Below, piece by piece: positions 33,075-43,511 of a DNA stretch of 64,000 nt. Each line of letters opens with the position of its first letter. Positions within the stretch are counted from its first letter, which is position 1. The position numbers and the translations under genes are program-made. The notes under the pieces are model-generated. The model was given only the letters and a program-made list of their open reading frames with translations, ran no database searches and had not been told where the DNA came from. This DNA comes from an uncultured Bacillota bacterium (GTDB lineage Bacteria; Bacillota; Clostridia; Peptostreptococcales; Anaerovoracaceae). The DNA lies in assembly GCA_949284065.1 (NCBI GenBank), contig CASDUO010000001.1, positions 1 to 64,000 of the forward strand. The letters run 5' to 3'.

Positions 33075-34271
33075 TCATTTGTGTGTCACTCTGACCGTGA
33101 CTGTTTCAGGAGAGATACCGGTCACATCTATATTGTCGTCGCAGGAATATCTCAGTCTGAGATCATGTACTCCTTCGCCAAGGCTTTTTCCCCGCACATA
33201 AAGCCTTATGTCGCTTTTCTTGACGTCGCTGACGATGTTTCTCGTTCCTCTGATCGTGACCGTTACACGTTCCGTCTGTACCGTTGCCGTGTATGTGTCC
33301 TGCAGATCGGCTACTTCTATGTCACCGGCGGAAAATGAGAGCTGTCTCAGATCCACATCGCTTATCTTCACTCTCACCGTAAGGTTCTCGCTGTTTTGCG
33401 CCGGCACCACACCGTCCGGCAGATCGAGGACTATAGGGATCTTCACAGTGGCTGTTATACCGCTTATATCTATGGGCTCTCCCCTTACCTCCTCGATATC
33501 GTCCAGATCTCTCTTGGCGCCTTTTACGGTCACCTCATCGGGGATCTCGATAGAATCCACCTGATATGCGTCTGTCACTTCACCGACAGTTTCCACGTTA
33601 AGAGGGACTGTCTTAGTATGCATCATGGTAGCCGTTACCGACACTCTGTCCTGTGACACACGTACATATGAAACTGTACGGCCTCTGCTGTCCACCGGCT
33701 CCGTTTCTGCATATACCGTAGTCTCCGATCCTTTTATCTTCCCTGCATCCACTTGGGCATGCACAGTTTCTACCTTGTCCACATTGGACTCGGCGCCTGT
33801 TATCACAAGGGTATCAGGCTCCACACTCACATTGCCCGGCTCGCGGTTGGCAGCGGATCCCAGGAATTCCGCTTCCACCTGTCTGGTCTCGCTTACCAGA
33901 TCGTCTATGCTCACATTGACGGTCTCCGGTGATACGTCCTGGACTCTCGTGTTTTTAGGCGGCATCACCAATACGTCGAGAGAAAAATCTCCCCGGTCCA
34001 GTCCTCCAAGATCTACAGTTGCTCGGATGTCTTCAGCGGCCACCCCTATGACATCAGATCTGCTGCCCGACAGCACCACGTCTACTGTATCCGTATCGGC
34101 CTCTGCCAGAGCCAGTCCCCTGTCTTCCAGATCATCGGTGTTGAGGAATTCTATCTCCACGTTGCGTACGGTGACATCCACATTCGGGTCCACCTGACCT
34201 ACTACATACATCCACAATATCACAGCCACTATGAGGGATATCACTATATCGGCTTTTTTACTGTTAAGCAC
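33075..34271 (-). CDS. cdaR: YbbR-domain regulator of diadenylate cyclase (CdaR)
   Basis: 398 aa. One N-terminal transmembrane helix (ADIVISLIVAVILWMYVVG, near residues 8-26) anchors an extracytoplasmic chain of repeated YbbR beta-strand units (VDVTVRNVEIEFLN, ATVDLGGLDRGD, VNVSIDDL and later repeats). CdaR modulates CdaA activity from outside the membrane. Its start overlaps cdaA by 8 bases. The order cdaA-cdaR-glmM-glmS is the standard Firmicute unit linking c-di-AMP to wall precursor synthesis and osmolyte control. Confidence 0.93.
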   Translation of the reverse strand: MLNSKKADIVISLIVAVILWMYVVGQVDPNVDVTVRNVEIEFLNTDDLEDRGLALAEADTDTVDVVLSGSRSDVIGVAAEDIRATVDLGGLDRGDFSLDVLVMPPKNTRVQDVSPETVNVSIDDLVSETRQVEAEFLGSAANREPGNVSVEPDTLVITGAESNVDKVETVHAQVDAGKIKGSETTVYAETEPVDSRGRTVSYVRVSQDRVSVTATMMHTKTVPLNVETVGEVTDAYQVDSIEIPDEVTVKGAKRDLDDIEEVRGEPIDISGITATVKIPIVLDLPDGVVPAQNSENLTVRVKISDVDLRQLSFSAGDIEVADLQDTYTATVQTERVTVTIRGTRNIVSDVKKSDIRLYVRGKSLGEGVHDLRLRYSCDDNIDVTGISPETVTVRVTHK

Positions 34272-35106
34272 TTTTCCCCCTCCTTATAGCTTTCTGCAAT
34301 ATGGTGTCGTTTCCTTCATCATCCTGCTGTTTTTTCAGATACAGTTTCAAAAGTATTTTTTCCACGGATTTCTCGTCAAGATACCGCTCAAGTTTCCCGT
34401 CGCTGGCGTATGAGATTATACCTGTCTCTTCTGACACTATGAATGTGGTGGCATCGGATTTTTCTGTTATCCCTATGCCGGCCCTGTGCCTCGTTCCCAG
34501 TTCTGAACTCAGATTCTTGTTTTCTGTCAGAGGCAGCACGCATCCTGCGGCATAGAGTTTTTCTCCCCGCACGATGAGAGCTCCGTCATGGAGAGGTGAA
34601 CCTTCGTAAAATATGTTTTCGATCAGTTCAGCGCTTATGTCTGCATTTATGACTATTCCCGACTCAGCTATATCATTGAGCATGGTCTCGTTTTCTATGA
34701 CTATGAGCGCACCTTCTTTTTTCCCCGACATGCTGTCTATGGCATTGACGAACTCTCCCACGATGCTCATGCTGGCTTCTTTGTGGGTCCTGGTGAATGC
34801 GTTTTTGATTATCTTGCTCCGACCCATCTGTTCAAGACCCCTTCTGAGTTCCGGCTGGAACACTATGACCAGGGCCAGGGCCCCCAGAGTCATAGCTGCC
34901 TGCAGCAACCAGTTCAAAGTGTACAGGTGCAGCCATCCCGAAGCCAGTGTAGCTACAACTAAAAGAAACAGCCCCTTTACCAACTGTCCGGCGCGGCTTT
35001 CTCTTATAAATCCTATGACTTTATACACGACAAAGGCCACTATGAGGATATCCACGATATCCATAAATCCTATGCCGCCTCGCATATTGCTTAAGAATTC
35101 CTGCAT
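34264..35106 (-). CDS. cdaA: Diadenylate cyclase CdaA
   Basis: 280 aa. Three hydrophobic segments in the first about 90 residues form the membrane anchor, and the rest is the DisA_N (DAC) domain that joins two ATP to c-di-AMP. Catalytic motifs SPLHDGALIV (DGA) and GTRHRAGIGITE (RHR) are intact, so it should be active. c-di-AMP controls potassium and osmolyte uptake in most Firmicutes. Leads the cdaA-cdaR-glmM-glmS unit, 43 bases after hpf, with a perfect hairpin in that gap. Confidence 0.95.
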   Translation of the reverse strand: MQEFLSNMRGGIGFMDIVDILIVAFVVYKVIGFIRESRAGQLVKGLFLLVVATLASGWLHLYTLNWLLQAAMTLGALALVIVFQPELRRGLEQMGRSKIIKNAFTRTHKEASMSIVGEFVNAIDSMSGKKEGALIVIENETMLNDIAESGIVINADISAELIENIFYEGSPLHDGALIVRGEKLYAAGCVLPLTENKNLSSELGTRHRAGIGITEKSDATTFIVSEETGIISYASDGKLERYLDEKSVEKILLKLYLKKQQDDEGNDTILQKAIRRGKSA

Positions 35107-35149: not shown

Positions 35150-35680
35150 TCAGTAGGTTGTCTCCAATAATCCGTAGTTATCGTTACTTCTCCTGTATAC
35201 TACGTTGACGCTGTCAGTTTCCATATTAAGGAATACGAAAAAGTTGTGCTCCAGCATCTCCATCTGTAATATCGCCTCATCAACGGTCATAGGCTCCAAC
35301 TCGAACTTTTTGGTCTTGACCACGTTGAGCTCTTCCGGCTCATCGGGATTTTCGGGCCACTGAGCGAACGAGAACTGCTTGTTGTCTTTGTGCTTCCTCT
35401 GGATCTTCGTTTTGAATCTGGACATCTGTGATGAAAGCTTGTCCACTGCGCTGTCTATACCTTCATAAAAATCTTCCGTCACACATTCCGCTCTGAATAT
35501 CATGCCTCTTGCGTTGATGGTGGCTTCCACCTTTTTTCTGGATTTTTCTGCGGAAAGGACCACGTTTGCCACAATGTCATCGGAAAAATACTTGCTGAGC
35601 TTTTGCATCTTTTTTTCAATGATTTCCTTAAGGGCATCGTCGGCTTTTACGTTATTTTTGCCCGTTATCGTTACTTTCAT
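35150..35680 (-). CDS. hpf: Ribosome hibernation promoting factor, long form
   Basis: 176 aa, the long-HPF length typical of Firmicutes. The N-terminal about 100 residues are the RaiA/HPF fold that sits in the decoding region (ITGKNNVKADDALKEIIEKK). A linker follows, then a C-terminal dimerisation domain (VKTKKFELEPMTVDEAI, LEHNFFVFLNMETDSVNVVYRR) that joins two 70S particles into 100S. Consensus-like promoter at 35718-35746 and a structured raiA-motif RNA upstream. Confidence 0.96.
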   Translation of the reverse strand: MKVTITGKNNVKADDALKEIIEKKMQKLSKYFSDDIVANVVLSAEKSRKKVEATINARGMIFRAECVTEDFYEGIDSAVDKLSSQMSRFKTKIQRKHKDNKQFSFAQWPENPDEPEELNVVKTKKFELEPMTVDEAILQMEMLEHNFFVFLNMETDSVNVVYRRSNDNYGLLETTY

Positions 35681-35717
35681 AATAATCCCCTCCTTATCTT
35701 ATGAATATCTTTGTTTG

Positions 35718-35746
35718 ATTATAACAATTCTGCGTTTTTAATACAA
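35718..35746 (-). promoter_or_regulatory. Promoter of hpf
   Basis: On the minus strand TTGTAT (complement of 35741-35746) and perfect TATAAT (35718-35723), spacer 17, 37 bases before the ATG. It lies between the structured RNA and hpf, so hpf can be transcribed without that RNA. Confidence 0.72.
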
Positions 35747-35772
35747 TAGCATTAAAGTTGTCAGGGAAATAT

Positions 35773-35947
35773 AACAGCCACTTGGTTGACCCGGTCTTTG
35801 CCCCCACACTTGCCTTTATCCGGTTTCCGGAGGTCTTACTTCTAAACTGCGCCATGATCACCGTGCCTATCTCTTACGGCACGGCTTACGTGGGTCCTTT
35901 TGCCCGCAGCTGGCATGGACTTTCAACCGCAAACCCAAGTGGCTGTT
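35773..35947 (-). ncRNA. raiA RNA: Probable raiA-motif structured RNA
   Basis: A 175-base gene-free block on the minus strand closed by a perfect 13-bp stem (AACAGCCACTTGG with CCAAGTGGCTGTT). Inside are a stem CCGTGCC/GGCACGG with loop GTAAGAGATA, the enclosing pair CCATG/CATGG, a crossing pair CTGCG/CGCAG (possible pseudoknot) and a TCCGG-AAA-CCGGA hairpin. Location between comFC (9 bases after its stop) and hpf is the reported setting of the raiA-motif RNA of Clostridia, a non-coding RNA tied to sporulation and aggregation in that group. The match is by position and fold, not by a covariance search. No promoter of its own was clear, so it may be processed from the comFC transcript. Confidence 0.78.
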
Positions 35948-35955
35948 TTGCTTAT

Positions 35956-36717
35956 TTACTGTTGTCCCAGGCTTTTGTTCCCCGCAGCAAATGTCAGTAC
36001 GTACACCTTTCCCACGCCCACATCTTTAAGGGCGGTCGCTGCGCTGTCCAAGGTGGCGCCGGTAGTGTATATATCATCTACCAGCAACACATTTGCTTGT
36101 GACAACTTATCACCGGCCGCTGAAAAAACTCTGAATGCGCCCTCCATGGTTTTCCTCCTTGTATGAGCGTCCTGATCTTTCAGCGGCGGCGTCTCTCTTA
36201 TCCTTTCCATAGCCTTTCTCATCACCGGTTTCCCTGCCCGCTTCCCAAGAGTCACGGCGATTATCTCCGCCTGATCATAACCTCTCTCGGCCAGTCTCTT
36301 TTTATGTACGGGGACCGGTATGATGACATCGTATGCCAGACTTTCGCCATCCATCCTGTCAGCCATGATCTCTCCTATGACACGGCCTATATATGCTTTA
36401 CCTTTATACTTCAGATCCATCATCAGCATACGCTCGTACAGACCGTATGACGCACATGTGTATCCCCTGTCGAAGGAATGTACGTTTTCCCTGCAGTCCG
36501 GACATGTTTTTCTCACGCTGTTTGCCGGCAATATCCTGCCGCACACATCACAGAGATCTTGTCCCGCCCACATGAATCTTCTTATACATTTGTCACAAAG
36601 ACAGTATTTTCTCGTACTGTCTATTATGCTGCCGCAGCAAAGACAATATGTGGCCGGCGGGAAAAGCATATCCATACATTTTTCCATCCCCTTCTCCAAA
36701 AAATCAAAAGTCTTCAT
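35956..36717 (-). CDS. comFC: ComF-family amidophosphoribosyltransferase-like protein
   Basis: 253 aa. An N-terminal zinc-binding region (CLCCGSIIDSTRKYCLCDKC, further C-x2-C pairs at DVCG and CPDC) precedes a phosphoribosyltransferase domain with the PRPP motif VLLVDDIYTTGAT near the C-terminus. ComFC/GntX proteins take part in DNA uptake or handle PRPP-related steps. Natural competence is not otherwise seen in this window. Overlaps recD2 by 14 bases, and the raiA-motif RNA starts just after it. Confidence 0.92.
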   Translation of the reverse strand: MKTFDFLEKGMEKCMDMLFPPATYCLCCGSIIDSTRKYCLCDKCIRRFMWAGQDLCDVCGRILPANSVRKTCPDCRENVHSFDRGYTCASYGLYERMLMMDLKYKGKAYIGRVIGEIMADRMDGESLAYDVIIPVPVHKKRLAERGYDQAEIIAVTLGKRAGKPVMRKAMERIRETPPLKDQDAHTRRKTMEGAFRVFSAAGDKLSQANVLLVDDIYTTGATLDSAATALKDVGVGKVYVLTFAAGNKSLGQQ

Positions 36718-38914
36718 AGAATGTCTTCTTCAACCTCGCTTTGAGTCCGGAATTCCTCTTGTTATGCTCCACATTATCCACCATAGCATATATGTCCCTT
36801 TTACTGCCTACCAGTACGACTTTTTCCTTTCCTCGCGATACTGCTGTATACAGGAGGTTCCTGGTGGCCAGCCCCCTGTACAGTCCGTGTGTGACAGGTA
36901 TGATGACCATAGGGAATTCACAGCCCTGGGATTTGTGCACCGTAACTGCATAGGCAGGCATGAGTTGGTTCAGTTCTTCACCGCTGTACACTGAAGTTTT
37001 TTCGTCTGAAAAACTTACCTGTACCGCACATTTGTCCGGGTCCACTATCTTTATGATACCCATATCTCCGTTATATATCCCTCTGTTCTTTTCAAAGGTC
37101 TCTTCATCGGTCCACTCCTTTTGATAGTTGTTCACCGACTGCATGACCTTGTCTCCCTCTCTGAAAATATGTTCCTCGAATTCTATCTGCTCTCTCCCCG
37201 GAACGAGCGGCACCAGTTCTTCCCTCAACCTTTTGCTCAGTTCCCTGCTGCCTGCAGGCCCTTTACGCATAGGTGTCAGCACCTGGATGTCCATTACTGG
37301 GTCATACCCGTATCTCTCTGCCCCGTATTTCGCCGCAAGTTCGAGGACCATATCCATTATCTCATCTTCCCTCTCACATTCTATTATCCGGAATTCGCTG
37401 TCCTCCCCTCCATCACCGGGATAATCTCCCATGTTTATCCTGTGGGCGTTCTCGGCTATGAGGCTTCCCTCGTACTGACGAAAGATCATCTTGAGGTCGT
37501 TGACCGTGAAACAGTCGCTTTCGATCATATCGGAAAGCACTCTGCCCGCTCCCACACTGGGAAGCTGGTCTGCATCGCCTACTATGATCAACCTTACGTT
37601 TTTATCGACGGCCTCCAACAATCCATCCATGAGCAGCAGGTCGATCATGGAAGCCTCGTCGATTATTATCGCCTCTGCCTCTATAGGGTTTTCCCTGTTC
37701 CTCTGGAAAACCATCCTGCCGGTGTTTTCATCAACATAACATTCCAACATCCTGTGGACAGTGGATGTGGGAGCACCTGTCGCTTCCGTTATCCTTTTGG
37801 CCGCTCTGCCCGTAGGCGCCGCTATCTTGTATGATATCCCGTTGAATTCCAATATCCTGACTATGGCGCTTATTATGGTAGTCTTGCCTGTGCCCGGACC
37901 TCCCGTGACTATAGAGACATTGTTCTTCATAGCATCTGCCACTGCTTTTTCCTGGCCTTCGGAAAGGACTATATCCGTTCTCAAAGTGCCTCTTCCAACG
38001 GCCTCGTCTATATCCACTTCTGCAGTTCCTGCCAAGGTCAGTTTCTTAAGATTATCACATATCCTTTTTTCCGCTTTGAGATATCGTTCGATATAAACCA
38101 GTTCTCTGTCCTCAAGTATGTCTATACGAAGATCTTCCCTGCCCTCTATGACGGCCGTCTTGAGAGACATATCGGCTTCTTCGACAGATATACCGGCTAC
38201 AGCCGCCGTCTCCTCGCAAAACATTCCCAAAGGCATATATACGCTCCCCCGGTCCAGCAGCCGGTCCATCACCTGCTTCATGGCACATTCTGTACGAAGC
38301 TGTCCGGCTACATCTATTCCCAGCGCCTTTACTATCCCGTCGCTTTGTTCGAAGTCCATGCCTCTCAGATCCCCCAGTATCCTGTAAGGATCTTCGCTCA
38401 GGACGTCCCAGGCTTTTCCACCGTAGCTCTTATACAGCTTTACGGCCCATTCCATGTCCGCTCCGCTGGCGGAAAACTTTTCCAAAAGTTCCAGCAGTTC
38501 GATGTTTTCCTTTACGGAATCCCCTATATCCTTTGCCGCGTCCCGGCTTATACCCTTTATTTCGGCAAGCCGCTCCGGCTCATTCTCCACTATATGCCGC
38601 GCCTCTTCGCCGAAAAGCCCCATTATGGCCTCGGCCCTTCTCTTTCCTATATTCTTTATCCATTCGGAATCGAGGAAACGGATCAAGGCTCTTTTCTCCG
38701 CAGGTTCCGCCTCCTCCACCGATATTATCCGATACTGTTCTCCATATCTGCCCATCCCTCTTTTCAATCTCAAAGAAAAACTCTCCCCTTCTCTGCATGA
38801 GGGGAGGTTTCCCACTATCTTTATGATCTCGTCTCCTGTTTCAAAATCGGCTACCACATAACCGTTTTTACTGTATATGATGCGCCGGACGGTCCCCCCT
38901 TTTATCTCATCCAT
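36704..38914 (-). CDS. recD2: RecD2-type ATP-dependent DNA helicase
   Basis: 736 aa superfamily 1B 5'-3' helicase of the RecD2 subfamily, which works without RecBC and aids repair and fork stability. N-terminal helical/OB-like extension (1-about 330, KNIGKRRAEAIMG helix-hairpin-helix), then Walker A GGPGTGKTT, motif II EASMID, ADQLPSVG, and the C-terminal UvrD_C2 signature YAVTVHKSQGCEF. Overlaps cca by 13 bases upstream and comFC by 14 downstream, so the three are translationally linked. Confidence 0.94.
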   Translation of the reverse strand: MDEIKGGTVRRIIYSKNGYVVADFETGDEIIKIVGNLPSCREGESFSLRLKRGMGRYGEQYRIISVEEAEPAEKRALIRFLDSEWIKNIGKRRAEAIMGLFGEEARHIVENEPERLAEIKGISRDAAKDIGDSVKENIELLELLEKFSASGADMEWAVKLYKSYGGKAWDVLSEDPYRILGDLRGMDFEQSDGIVKALGIDVAGQLRTECAMKQVMDRLLDRGSVYMPLGMFCEETAAVAGISVEEADMSLKTAVIEGREDLRIDILEDRELVYIERYLKAEKRICDNLKKLTLAGTAEVDIDEAVGRGTLRTDIVLSEGQEKAVADAMKNNVSIVTGGPGTGKTTIISAIVRILEFNGISYKIAAPTGRAAKRITEATGAPTSTVHRMLECYVDENTGRMVFQRNRENPIEAEAIIIDEASMIDLLLMDGLLEAVDKNVRLIIVGDADQLPSVGAGRVLSDMIESDCFTVNDLKMIFRQYEGSLIAENAHRINMGDYPGDGGEDSEFRIIECEREDEIMDMVLELAAKYGAERYGYDPVMDIQVLTPMRKGPAGSRELSKRLREELVPLVPGREQIEFEEHIFREGDKVMQSVNNYQKEWTDEETFEKNRGIYNGDMGIIKIVDPDKCAVQVSFSDEKTSVYSGEELNQLMPAYAVTVHKSQGCEFPMVIIPVTHGLYRGLATRNLLYTAVSRGKEKVVLVGSKRDIYAMVDNVEHNKRNSGLKARLKKTFYEDF

Positions 38915-40203
38915 TTTACCTTCCTTGTAGCTGCCGAGAATTTGTTGCGGCTGAACCTCTTGGCCCGGAACATGAGCTCCTCTTTATTGTTCTTCGATGG
39001 TTTTCTGTGTACCACATCGGTGAGCATCAGCAGTATCCTGTCTGCCGTTTCCTCATCTTTACAGATGCCGCCGTCCAAAAGATCTTTCGCGTTTACCGCA
39101 AGATCTTCCACATATACAGGTTCGCCGCTCACCACTATCATGTCCATGTAATGCTTCCTTGCCACTATCTTCATCTCGTCGTACCCATGGACGATCCTGT
39201 CAGCCTTCGAAAAGTTGTCCACGAACTCATATACGTCGGGGCCGTATTTTGCAAGGAATCCCTTCAGCTCCACTGTGTTCCTGATGAAATACACTTTAGG
39301 ATTCAGATCTATTGCCATCTCTATCTTGTCCTGGGTATCTTCATCGTATTGCAGCCTCTCCGCCGCTCTTTTTCCCTTTTTATCATCTATGCACATGTAG
39401 AACAGACAGAGCCTCCGCTGAAGGATCCGCTTCGTCTTGTCGATATTTTCAAAAAGCTCATCGAACATACGCTTTTGCCGTCTGCTGAGTCCCTGCGCAA
39501 GATCTCCGATTATGTACTGCATCAGATCTGCGGCTGCGAGCATCTTGAGGCCCTTTCCCGCATAGGGAGCCGCGATTATCTTTTCAAACTCGTCCCTTAT
39601 GCTGGCCGTGCTGCAGAGCTCCATCCTCTGAGCGTTTGCCACCATGGCAGAGTACGTTTTTCCATCTATATCGTAGTCCGTATAAGCCGCCAGCCTTATT
39701 GCCCGCATTATGCGAATGGGGTTCTCCGCAAGTCTTTCCATAGGGTCCCCCACGATCCGTATCAATCGCTTGTCCATATCTTCCCTGCCGCCGAAAGGGT
39801 CCACGAATCTGCCTGTCGGATTGTCGGCCATGGCGTTTATGGTGAAATCTCTTCTCGCAAGATCCGTTTCTATATCATCGACGAATTCCACAGTTGCCGG
39901 TCTGCGGCCGTCTTTATACTGGCCGTCCTTCCTGAAAGTGGCAATGTCGGCAATGATGCTCTCTTCATCATCTTCGTCTTCCGTACGGTCTATCCTGACC
40001 ACACTGAGCTTTTCGCTGAGCACCTGAGCTTCCGGGAATATGCTTTTGAGATCGTCGAGCCTGGCGTCCGTAGCCAGGTCCCAGTCTACCGGTTTTTCTC
40101 CCCTCAGACAATCTCTGACACAACCTCCCACGGCATAGCACTGAAAGCCTTTGTCACTGAGCTTTTTCATTATCCTGTTCACATCTCTGTGTAGCTTTAT
40201 CAA
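38902..40203 (-). CDS. cca: tRNA nucleotidyltransferase (CCA-adding enzyme)
   Basis: 433 aa, class II. Adds or repairs the CCA end of tRNA without a template. Nucleotidyl-transferase core: YAVGGCVRDCLRG and DWDLAT (the DxD metal aspartates), then RRDFTINAMA, NPIRIMRAIRLA and the ERx2DE-like region. The C-terminal half is the HD-less tail with body helices. tRNA-Glu in this window already encodes CCA, so a repair role dominates for such tRNAs. It could be a poly(A) polymerase of the same family, but the Firmicute-type domain set favours cca. Confidence 0.9.
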   Translation of the reverse strand: MIKLHRDVNRIMKKLSDKGFQCYAVGGCVRDCLRGEKPVDWDLATDARLDDLKSIFPEAQVLSEKLSVVRIDRTEDEDDEESIIADIATFRKDGQYKDGRRPATVEFVDDIETDLARRDFTINAMADNPTGRFVDPFGGREDMDKRLIRIVGDPMERLAENPIRIMRAIRLAAYTDYDIDGKTYSAMVANAQRMELCSTASIRDEFEKIIAAPYAGKGLKMLAAADLMQYIIGDLAQGLSRRQKRMFDELFENIDKTKRILQRRLCLFYMCIDDKKGKRAAERLQYDEDTQDKIEMAIDLNPKVYFIRNTVELKGFLAKYGPDVYEFVDNFSKADRIVHGYDEMKIVARKHYMDMIVVSGEPVYVEDLAVNAKDLLDGGICKDEETADRILLMLTDVVHRKPSKNNKEELMFRAKRFSRNKFSAATRKVKWMR

Positions 40204-40214
40204 ATCGATACCTC

Positions 40215-41177
40215 CTATTTTTTCTTGTAGACGCGCCTGTTGTCCAGGCTCCAGACACTTTCGCTGAACTGTCCGGCATCTGTCTTTGACAGGGCGTCCT
40301 CCATATCATACATCCTGGCGTCGATCATATCCAGGTGATGCAATATCTCTGCCTCCGGGAACATGGGTTTTTTGGGACTGCCGTACTCCGGTTCGTAATG
40401 GTGGGAAAGGATCATATGCTGTATCATCACCCTTTTCTCGTGAGAAAATCCCAGTTCTTCCATGATGGCATCGGTGTTCCTGACTCCCTGCACTATATGG
40501 CCCAGCATCATCCCCTCGAAAGAATACCCATCGCTTATGCCGTATTCATTCGACTTTATCTCCTTTATTTTTTCCATGTCATGGACTATTACTCCTGCAG
40601 CCACAAGGTCCCTGTCCAATATATCGTACACCTGGCATATCCTGTCTCCTGTCATGAGCATGCGCTTCATGTGGTAAAGCAGTCCGGACATTATGGAATG
40701 ATGGTTTTTCGATGCTGCCGGATAGTACATCAGCTTTTCCCTGTTATCCTCCAACAGTCTTTTACACAGGGCTTTCAACTGGGGATCCGCCATGCTTTCC
40801 GTCCTGTCCCATATGAAGTCGAACATGTCGCGGGCCGGCTCCGGCGCTGTTTTTACGAATTCCCTTATGTCGAATTCCTTTTCGTCCGCTTTGTATATGA
40901 TCTTCAGCGTATACTGATTTATCCCTTTCCATTCCGAGACCAGACCTTTGGCGTGGATCATGTCTCCGGTTTTCAGACTGCTGTAGTATTCCACGGCCTC
41001 TTCCCCGTCTCCATGGATGTCCCACTTTTTTGCCGCTATGTCTCCTGTGCTGTCAGAAAGTACCATGTCCAGATACGATCTGCCGTTTTTGTCCTCGCGT
41101 ATCACTGCGGACTTCACCATGAATATCCCTTCTGCATCATCTTTGGCTCTGAAGTCAGCTATTCGTTTTCTTTCCAT
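40215..41177 (-). CDS. yhaM: YhaM-type 3'-5' exoribonuclease (OB plus HD domains)
   Basis: 320 aa from the ATG at 41177 (AAAGGGAAT precedes). A longer frame to 41222 overlaps the promoter region. N-terminal OB fold (1-about 115, SYLDMVLSDSTGDIAAKKWD) binds nucleic acid. The HD phosphohydrolase domain follows with HHSIMSGLLYHMK, VIVHDMEK (HD pair) and MILSHHYEPEYGSP. YhaM trims short RNA and DNA 3' ends in Bacilli. First gene of a yhaM-cca-recD2-comFC unit. Confidence 0.9.
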   Translation of the reverse strand: MERKRIADFRAKDDAEGIFMVKSAVIREDKNGRSYLDMVLSDSTGDIAAKKWDIHGDGEEAVEYYSSLKTGDMIHAKGLVSEWKGINQYTLKIIYKADEKEFDIREFVKTAPEPARDMFDFIWDRTESMADPQLKALCKRLLEDNREKLMYYPAASKNHHSIMSGLLYHMKRMLMTGDRICQVYDILDRDLVAAGVIVHDMEKIKEIKSNEYGISDGYSFEGMMLGHIVQGVRNTDAIMEELGFSHEKRVMIQHMILSHHYEPEYGSPKKPMFPEAEILHHLDMIDARMYDMEDALSKTDAGQFSESVWSLDNRRVYKKK

Positions 41178-41210
41178 AAAGATTCCCTTTCTTTCTATCG
41201 TCTGAAAGAC

Positions 41211-41216
41211 ATTATA
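41211..41216 (-). promoter_or_regulatory. -10 element of the yhaM operon
   Basis: Consensus TATAAT on the minus strand, 34 bases before the yhaM start. No convincing -35 at 17-bp spacing. An 8-bp palindrome GACCGGTC lies at 41225-41232. Confidence 0.4.
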
Positions 41217-41240
41217 CAACATTTGACCGGTCTTTCATAT

Positions 41241-41273
41241 AAAAAAGGACCTTTTCCGTAGGCAAAGGTCCTT
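41241..41273 (-). terminator. Terminator of the coiled-coil gene
   Basis: On the minus strand AAGGACCTTT pairs with AAAGGTCCTT, followed by T6. It sits 12 bases after the stop at 41285. Confidence 0.88.
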
Positions 41274-41284
41274 CTCTCCCAACC

Positions 41285-41929
41285 TTATTTGAATATCCTG
41301 TGAGCGCTGCTGTCGTCTATCACTTTCACATCGGCTATCTCCGGGAAAAGCCATCTTCCTATGGCATCCAAGGCAAATTCTTTCACCTCTTCCTCCTTGT
41401 TTTCATCTATGACCAGGACTACGTTCCCCTTGTTCAGCCAGTCATGTTTGCACCCTTTCTTATCCATTATCCTGACATACAGGTACTCCTCATCCTTTGC
41501 AACGACGGAAACTTTGCCGTACGCCCAGTGATAATACTCCGATCCTTCTGTACACTGGGAGATCTCTTTGCTCCAGTCTCTGCCGGAGTCTTCCCCCTTT
41601 TTGGCTTTTTTCAATCCCAGTTCATAAAGATCAGCACCTGCTTCTTCGCCTAAAGCCATGATTTTTTTCTTTCTGTCATCTATCTTCCGTCCCAATTTCT
41701 CGGTGCCTTCCTCCAGGGCCGCCTTCCCTCTCTTTATCTTCTTCCAGTCCATTTTGACCCATTTGTTTTCTTCCATGATCTCATCGACTTTGTCGCTGAG
41801 TTTGTTCATTTCTTCTTTATCTTTATCTTCTTTGGCTTTTTTGAACTTTCGGAAATTTCTTCTGAGGCTTTCGAGGGTCTTGATCTCCTCTTTCCACTTT
41901 TCCATGTTCTTTGCCTGTTTATCTTCCAC
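41285..41929 (-). CDS. Hypothetical coiled-coil protein, unknown family
   Basis: 214 aa, GTG start at 41929 after AAAGGTGAAACACA. The first about 100 residues are highly charged Lys/Glu helices predicted to form coiled coils (EKWKEEIKTLESL, KKAKEDKDKEEMNKL). The C-terminal half (about 130-205) looks globular, with EYYHWAYGKVSVVAKDEEYLYVRIMD and VVLVIDENKEEEV. No domain was recognised and there is no signal peptide or membrane segment. It is monocistronic with a near-consensus promoter and a strong terminator, so it may be well expressed. Confidence 0.6.
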   Translation of the reverse strand: MEDKQAKNMEKWKEEIKTLESLRRNFRKFKKAKEDKDKEEMNKLSDKVDEIMEENKWVKMDWKKIKRGKAALEEGTEKLGRKIDDRKKKIMALGEEAGADLYELGLKKAKKGEDSGRDWSKEISQCTEGSEYYHWAYGKVSVVAKDEEYLYVRIMDKKGCKHDWLNKGNVVLVIDENKEEEVKEFALDAIGRWLFPEIADVKVIDDSSAHRIFK

Positions 41930-41982: not shown

Positions 41983-42010
41983 ATTATAATTGGCCCGGTC
42001 TTTTTGTCAA
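41983..42010 (-). promoter_or_regulatory. Near-consensus promoter of the coiled-coil gene
   Basis: On the minus strand perfect TTGACA (complement of 42005-42010) and perfect TATAAT (41983-41988), spacer 16. One of the best sigma-A matches in the window, 54 bases before the GTG. Confidence 0.8.
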
Positions 42011-42074: not shown

Positions 42075-43511
42075 CTAAAGGAGTTCCAGCGCCCGCAACC
42101 TGCGGTAAAGGGTCGATTCACTTATGCCCAACATTTTGGCAGCTTCCCGTTTGCCCTGAAGGCTTTTTCCGGTCTGTTCGAGGCATTCTTCTATTATCTT
42201 TCGCTCTGCAGATGCAAGCCTGCTTTTCAGATCGTCATGACCCACTGCATCGGTGGTCTTTAAAAGTATGTTTTCGGGCAGGTTCTCCAGATGTATCTGC
42301 TCCCCATCCTCCATATTCACCGCATATTCTATTACATTCTCTATCTCTCTCACATTGCCGGGCCAACTGTACTCATTGAGGGCCCTCCTCGCCTCATCGG
42401 TCATCCCCCTTATGTCCTTGCCCAGCCTTGCTGCGAATTTCTGTGTTATATGATCTAAAAGCACATCTATATCATCAGGTCTCTCCCTCAAAGGCGGTAT
42501 GTATATGGGTATGACATTGAGGTAAAAATACAGATCCTTGCGGAATTTTTTCTCCCTGATCATTTTTTCCAGACTCTTGCATGTGGCGGCTATCACTCTC
42601 ACGTTCACGTCCACCGGCGCAACGCTGCCTACAGGATATATCTTGCGGTTCCTCAAAGCGAAAAGGAACTTTTCCTGGATGTGCAGGGGCATATCGCCCA
42701 CCTCGTCCAAAAATATGGTGCCTCCTCCGGCGATCTTCAGCTTGCCCGGTTTGCTCCACTTTTCTCCCGTACCTGCCTCCGTCTTCTCATATCCGAAAAG
42801 CTCGCTTTCCAGCAATATATCCGGTGTGGCCGTACAGTTGACTGTTATGAACGGAGCGTCTGCTCTGTTGCTTTCCCTGTGTATGGATCTGGCCAGCAGG
42901 CTCTTGCCTATACCGCTGTCTCCGCTTATCAGCACGGCAGAGTCACTCTGGGCTACCTGCAGGGCTCGCATCTTCACATTCTCCATCTGCCTGCTGACGC
43001 TTATGATGTGATCGAGCGAAGGTCCCTCATCTGTGTCCGAGATAAGTGAAAAGAGAGTATCCTCCAGGCTCGACCTGTTCTCATCCACCAGGTAGGCGTC
43101 TGCGATCAGTTCAGCCATTATACGCAAAAATTCCATGAGATCCGAGGTCTTGTCTATTATCTTTTGTCTCTGCTGTTCATCAAAGGCGATCAGTCCTATG
43201 ATGCCTAAAGTCACGTTCCCCGCCTTTACAGGCGTACAGATCTCTGCGAGCTCCCCCTTTCCTCCCCCGTAATTCTTATCCTTACGGGAATCTATAGTTA
43301 TATAACCGCTCCCGCTTCTCAGACAGTTGGCATATACCATATTGCCGTTTATATCACCGTTTTCCTCGTATTCCCCCGTCTTATCCGCGTAGCGTCCGGT
43401 GCCTCCTATTATTTTCAGGCTGTCATCCACTATCTCCGTCTCCAGATCCAAGGCGGCGGTAATAGCGTTAGCGACCCTCTGCACCGTATCCTGTATCAAT
43501 TCCAGCGACAT
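42075..43511 (-). CDS. Sigma-54-family AAA+ transcriptional regulator lacking GAFTGA
   Basis: 478 aa. Residues 1-145 form an N-terminal sensor domain, perhaps GAF-like or sugar-diacid-like (ITAALDLETEIVDDSLK), with a conserved GGGKGELAE stretch. A short linker leads to the AAA+ core with Walker A GDSGIGKS (197-204), Walker B GTIFLDEVGD (264-273) and the PLRERPDDI sensor region. The last 45 residues are a Fis-type helix-turn-helix (KREAAKMLGISESTLYRRL). The loop that contacts sigma-54, normally ELFGYEKGAFTGA, reads ELFGYEKTEAGTG (243-249), so activation through sigma-54 is unlikely. A TyrR-like role at sigma-70 promoters, often repression, fits better. Divergent from DUF1847. Start ATG follows CGGAGGTGGAAC. 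Confidence 0.9.
   Translation of the reverse strand: MSLELIQDTVQRVANAITAALDLETEIVDDSLKIIGGTGRYADKTGEYEENGDINGNMVYANCLRSGSGYITIDSRKDKNYGGGKGELAEICTPVKAGNVTLGIIGLIAFDEQQRQKIIDKTSDLMEFLRIMAELIADAYLVDENRSSLEDTLFSLISDTDEGPSLDHIISVSRQMENVKMRALQVAQSDSAVLISGDSGIGKSLLARSIHRESNRADAPFITVNCTATPDILLESELFGYEKTEAGTGEKWSKPGKLKIAGGGTIFLDEVGDMPLHIQEKFLFALRNRKIYPVGSVAPVDVNVRVIAATCKSLEKMIREKKFRKDLYFYLNVIPIYIPPLRERPDDIDVLLDHITQKFAARLGKDIRGMTDEARRALNEYSWPGNVREIENVIEYAVNMEDGEQIHLENLPENILLKTTDAVGHDDLKSRLASAERKIIEECLEQTGKSLQGKREAAKMLGISESTLYRRLRALELL

Follow-up and report, generated by a model that had tools for sequence, protein, structure and literature searches.

The window, that is, the whole stretch of 64,000 nucleotides analysed here, carries on its minus strand a row of genes running into comFC, then a 175-base block and then hpf (Table 1). 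As the original prediction had it, the block lies between comFC and hpf (on the minus strand, with the end of comFC at 35956 and the start of hpf at 35680), contains no plausible gene and is closed by a perfect 13-bp stem (AACAGCCACUUGG/CCAAGUGGCUGUU, exactly at 35773-35785 and 35935-35947). The comFC stop codon is 8 nt ahead of this stem and 12 nt ahead of the Rfam core. The gene for the c-di-AMP synthase, cdaA (34264-35106), is located after hpf, together with ybbR and glmM. Upstream of the block, yhaM (3'-5' exoribonuclease) and cca (tRNA CCA-adding enzyme) are found at 38902-41222, both encoding enzymes of RNA ends. A sigma-54-dependent transcriptional activator is encoded at 42075-43511, with a strong TTGTCA-17-TATAAT site upstream of it (43563-43535).

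Table 1. Features of the raiA/ModT locus, in window coordinates.
Feature	Position	Strand	Basis or detail
raiA/ModT RNA with full 13-bp closing stem	35773..35947	minus	RF03072, 139.1 bits; fold z -4.1; Rfam core 35777-35943
P1, 5' strand	35935..35947	minus	9 bp of Rfam P1 plus 4 extra pairs (35944-35947)
P1, 3' strand	35773..35785	minus	Sequence and covariation
P1b/P1c, 5' strand (UUG, CGGUU)	35925..35932	minus	Partners 35786-35788 and 35792-35796
P3 hairpin (P3a GUCC/GGAC, P3b GCC/GGC, 7-nt loop)	35894..35920	minus	100% of cells paired
P3 loop, first half of pk-1	35905..35911	minus	Covariation
pk-loop, second half of pk-1	35845..35851	minus	Covariation
P4, 5' strand (CCAC)	35890..35893	minus	Pairs with GUGG 35804-35807; 100% paired
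P5 hairpin	35860..35885	minus	Both-side changes at 6/8 pairs
Short P6/P7 stem-loop (variant 1)	35813..35833	minus	RF03072 alignment and covariation
J4-1c nucleotides of pk-2	35799..35800	minus	Proposed partners 35853-35854
comFC	35956..36717	minus	DZR_2 and Pribosyltran over cut-off; ComF family matches
hpf (long-form ribosome hibernation promoting factor)	35150..35680	minus	Ribosom_S30AE and S30AE_C
Putative hpf promoter, 3' of the RNA	35718..35746	minus	-35 TTGTAT 35741-35746, 17 nt, -10 TGTTATAAT 35718-35723; read from sequence
Gene row into comFC (214-aa unnamed ORF, yhaM, cca, recD2)	36704..41929	minus	Read toward the RNA
Promoter-like site TTGACA-16-TATAAT (12/12)	41983..42010	minus	Consensus scan only; upstream of the gene row

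An Rfam search confirmed that the block is a raiA-motif (ModT, RF03072) RNA, a family already known. The match runs from 35943 to 35777 on the minus strand and covers the full model (1-209) with 139.1 bits (E 2.8e-34), far over the gathering score of 101.3 bits, which bears out the identity first proposed from the letters. No strand had been named then, and a fold of the plus strand was set aside, the RNA being encoded on the minus one, where the block folds at -71 kcal/mol (z = -4.1), with none of 200 shuffles equally good. The window RNA shares with raiA/ModT the sequence core, P1, P3-P6, pk-1, the GGNCAAA junction, and the usual neighbours, comFC upstream and hpf downstream. These neighbours, reported in the literature at 74% (comFC) and 66% (raiA/hpf), are common but not defining.

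Copies from outside the family of the host score 148-200 bits; the window copy scores lower because the 42 model positions of the long P8 region are replaced by 3 nt. With this replacement the P6-P7-P8 multi-stem domain is missing and the P6 region is a short stem-loop, so the window RNA is a further member of the short-form class (short-P6, variant 1) and not of variant 2. Variant 1 represents 32% of known raiA sequences (Haack et al. 2025, PMC11751092). The solved raiA structures, from C. acetobutylicum, represent the long form, variant 2 (PMC11751092), and no variant 1 structure was found within the limited literature covered.

The secondary structure was evaluated in an alignment of 29 short-form relatives, made by sequence alone and therefore not fitted to any fold. 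The tested structure comprised 52 pairs, taken from the cryo-EM description (PMC11751092) and from the window sequence. Across the relatives 93.3% of the cells were paired, against 82.2% after shuffling, and changes on both sides were found at 31 of the 52 pairs (18.0 in shuffles) and in 183 cells (51.5 in shuffles). When the partner was slid by one to three bases the pairing dropped to 32-46%, a control that flatters the structure because the window sequence was one of its sources; the counts of both-side changes are unaffected by this. The alignment thus supports P1, P3-P7 and the 7-bp pk-1 as predicted stems of the RNA, and a lack of stem covariation among close relatives, which the original prediction had named as grounds for its rejection, is not what was found.

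All nine Rfam P1a pairs show both-side changes. In P1b and P1c the window carries the rarer compensated types, U-A in P1b (UUG/CAA) and C-G in P1c; the compensatory changes are CG to UA in two rows and UA to CG or AU in six. P3 alternates among G-C, A-U and G-U, and P4 shows one compensatory change, A-U to G-C. The Rfam pairing of nucleotides 28-30 with the 3' part was dropped, as the CCAC/GUGG form of P4 matches the published description and has this compensatory change. The pseudoknot that had been suggested as possible proved to be real: pk-1 joins the P3 loop to the pk-loop by seven pairs (35905-35911 with 35845-35851), is 96.5% paired in the 29 relatives and has both-side changes at five of the seven. 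The proposed pk-2 is 98% paired but almost invariant across the 29 rows, and hence beyond the reach of covariation.

Between the RNA and the hpf start codon there is a probable hpf promoter, TTGTAT-17-TATAAT with an extended -10, which supports the view of the original prediction that hpf is transcribed on its own. A similar TTGTAT/TATAAT pair occurs in the flanks of three relatives (L031, L049 and L054). Rfam types the family as 'Cis-reg; riboswitch', and hpf does follow the RNA in the same orientation, as would be expected of a leader or riboswitch controlling that gene in cis. The position of the promoter, however, would leave the RNA outside the hpf leader; in relatives the distance from RNA to hpf ranges from 27 to more than 2000 nt, with hpf sometimes inverted, and knockouts in C. 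difficile and C. acetobutylicum are complemented in trans (PMC11706538), all of which makes control of hpf in cis very improbable.

The observation that the RNA has no clear promoter of its own agrees with the promoter scans. A consensus scan of the minus strand at 35600-36300 found none for the RNA, and in the region 5-60 nt upstream of P1 the best score was 3.9 (p 0.34). Nor was a strong minus-strand promoter found within recD2 or comFC. As judged from its sequence, the 12/12 site at 42010-41983 probably gives rise to the transcript that extends into the RNA. The C. difficile RNA is equipped with a sigma-A promoter and terminators of its own (PMC11706538), and a sigma-A promoter has been reported for four clostridia, a feature that is common but not defining. 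The window copy differs from the known raiA/ModT RNAs in three respects at the locus: it lacks the P8 domain, it has no recognisable promoter, and the comFC stop nearly touches P1.

These features were examined across the family of the host, for which the closest named relatives are Clostridiales Family XIII, Mogibacterium and Anaerovorax. Of the 350 genomes of the family, 314 carry the RNA (148 of the 156 of high quality), compared with 42 of 196 at class level. The dominant form in the family (Clostridiales Family XIII) is the short-P6 variant 1; the long form is limited to a few genera, and those sampled cluster on the Hpf tree. The commonest gene order in the examined family loci is recD2-comFC-RNA-hpf-cdaA-ybbR, the part from the RNA to ybbR being common in the family.

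The promoter survey included 194 non-redundant loci with enough flank, scanned 5-60 nt upstream of P1. A score of at least 10, which background positions reach in 4%, was obtained for 29/31 class-level and 14/16 order-level copies, but for only 51/147 copies of the family. A first scan of 5-20 nt could have missed sites because a lengthened P1 may intervene; rescanning 5-60 nt left the outcome unchanged. In 86 of the 147 family loci the comFC stop lies at most 60 nt from the RNA or inside it, and in 10 family loci comFC overlaps the RNA; these overlapping loci have the lowest promoter scores of all (median -1.2). In six loci (L040, L052, L055, L057, L183 and L196) the comFC frame extends 21 nt into the RNA, an overlap that puts the comFC stop codon on the UGA at nucleotides 19-21 of the RNA. 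A third arrangement was observed in a rumen Mogibacterium-like group (L106-L122), with no promoter, no long P1 and a preceding gene other than comFC.

A different reading of the window copy is that of a stand-alone raiA gene with a poor-consensus promoter inside the 3' end of comFC, for which processing would be unneeded; a promoter of unusual sequence at that place would be missed by a consensus scan. Seven relatives (L083, 1918-2079; L085, L086, L087, L090, L097 and L108) have the TAAAAT -10 of the probable promoter of the RNA inside the final codons and the stop of comFC, one example of this dual use of stop codon and -10 being GATGTGGTAAAATAA/G, and outside the family promoters are the rule. 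Since the best window score is within the range of shuffles, and the lowest scores belong to the loci with a comFC overlap, we regard such a promoter as possible but somewhat doubtful.

The flanks of the RNA in the family pair for about 13 bp beyond the Rfam P1, with 67-88% of the loci paired at each position, against 38-54% when the flanks of different loci were combined as a control. Most of the extension positions show all four Watson-Crick types, and pairing returns to background by position 16. P1 is thus commonly about 22 bp in the family, or two helical turns, while the flanks of copies from outside it scarcely pair past the first few bases. A significant extension was found in 75 of the 91 copies without a promoter (near scan score below 7), compared with 16 of the 38 with one; in the 5-60 nt scan a promoter was present in 23 of 98 long-P1 family copies. 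When independent events were counted on the Hpf tree, the association of a long P1 with loss of the promoter was not significant (10 pairs; about 2.6 opposite and 0 same). The window P1 has only 4 of the extra pairs, 13 bp in all.

P1 and the U-rich stretch after it could also be read as an intrinsic terminator whose loop is the entire RNA, making the 3' end and ending the comFC transcript, a role compatible with processing. In the window UGUUAUAUUU follows the 9-bp P1, and a stretch of 8 nt at the foot of the stem contains 5 U or more in 30% of the promoterless long-P1 relatives, compared with 14% of control positions. The remaining 70% lack such U-richness, so the explanation fits only a minority; moreover, a stem of about 22 bp exceeds what a terminator needs and the loop would be 150 nt, making a terminator a rather unlikely account of the stem.

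Promoterless copies with a lengthened, covarying P1, and with comFC running into the RNA, suggest that processing frees the RNA from the operon transcript. The original suggestion of such processing, from the comFC transcript, is strengthened by the missing promoter here and by the extended P1 or comFC overlap of relatives, while the processing step itself we infer. The reading that we consider reasonably probable is that the short-P6 raiA/ModT RNA, likely trans-acting, is made without a promoter of its own within the yhaM-cca-recD2-comFC transcript and trimmed to P1. The RNA would form the 3' part of this long transcript; its compact fold would draw both ends together into the P1 stem, and nucleases would degrade the transcript up to that stem and leave the folded RNA intact, with hpf transcribed separately from its promoter just 3' of the RNA.

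The stems of rRNA precursors are processing sites cut by RNase III, and the covarying P1 of about 22 bp in relatives would be the kind of duplex that this enzyme cuts there. The likeness is that in many family members a compact RNA is bounded by flanks that form a long duplex with each other; the window copy differs in having 13 bp only, and its cleavage is putative. An RNase III gene is present in the host genome, and the enzyme may act on the window RNA, but a 13-bp stem is short for a standard RNase III substrate, and the 5' end of the window RNA is its least explained feature because its own P1 has only four extra pairs. The operon-embedded arrangement and long closing stem across the family appear, from the comparison of loci, to be the new part and apply only partly to the window copy; no description of the embedded arrangement was found within the limited literature covered.

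Regarding function, the original prediction placed the RNA near ribosome hibernation. This is not where the published effects lie, which concern growth transition, c-di-GMP and sporulation, with the RNA acting in trans (PMC11706538). ModT of C. difficile is abundant, stable and trans-acting, and structure probing suggests that protein binds to it (PMC11706538). For a raiA/ModT RNA such a transcript is expected to measure about 165-215 nt. In the host, the compact pseudoknotted RNA would most likely act in trans as well, probably bound by protein, as growth gives way to stationary phase.

Deletion of modT in C. difficile leads to a delayed entry into stationary phase, higher c-di-GMP and reduced sporulation (PMC11706538), from which one might suppose that c-di-GMP or sporulation is the main route by which the RNA acts. 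The window host differs from that system: its genome (95.3% complete) carries the RNA, but GGDEF, PilZ, Spo0A and SpoIVA were searched for and none was detected, and an EAL match was below threshold (21.8 bits, cut-off 31.3). Two further genomes with the RNA, G010 (99%) and G061 (98%), lack all five markers (GGDEF, EAL, PilZ, Spo0A and SpoIVA). Because the RNA is kept where no c-di-GMP or sporulation marker can be detected, its core function cannot depend on either, and a main action through them is highly unlikely; the effects on both probably arise, in particular lineages, from a more basic role.

For the family as a whole, we hold evenly balanced the broader proposal that raiA/ModT of Family XIII is largely promoterless and cut out of the mRNA of the comFC operon by means of a dedicated closing duplex about 22 bp long, in some species overlapping comFC with a conserved UGA as its stop, and that its core role is independent of c-di-GMP and sporulation. 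If so, the supply of the RNA would follow transcription of the comFC operon, and caution is needed since RNA levels may track the activity of that operon. The family-wide shift from a promoter to an operon-embedded RNA with a long P1 offers a concrete and testable model of biogenesis. The small genomes that have the RNA without detectable GGDEF, PilZ, Spo0A or SpoIVA exclude those pathways as its general output, and provide simpler systems in which to seek the partner of the RNA.
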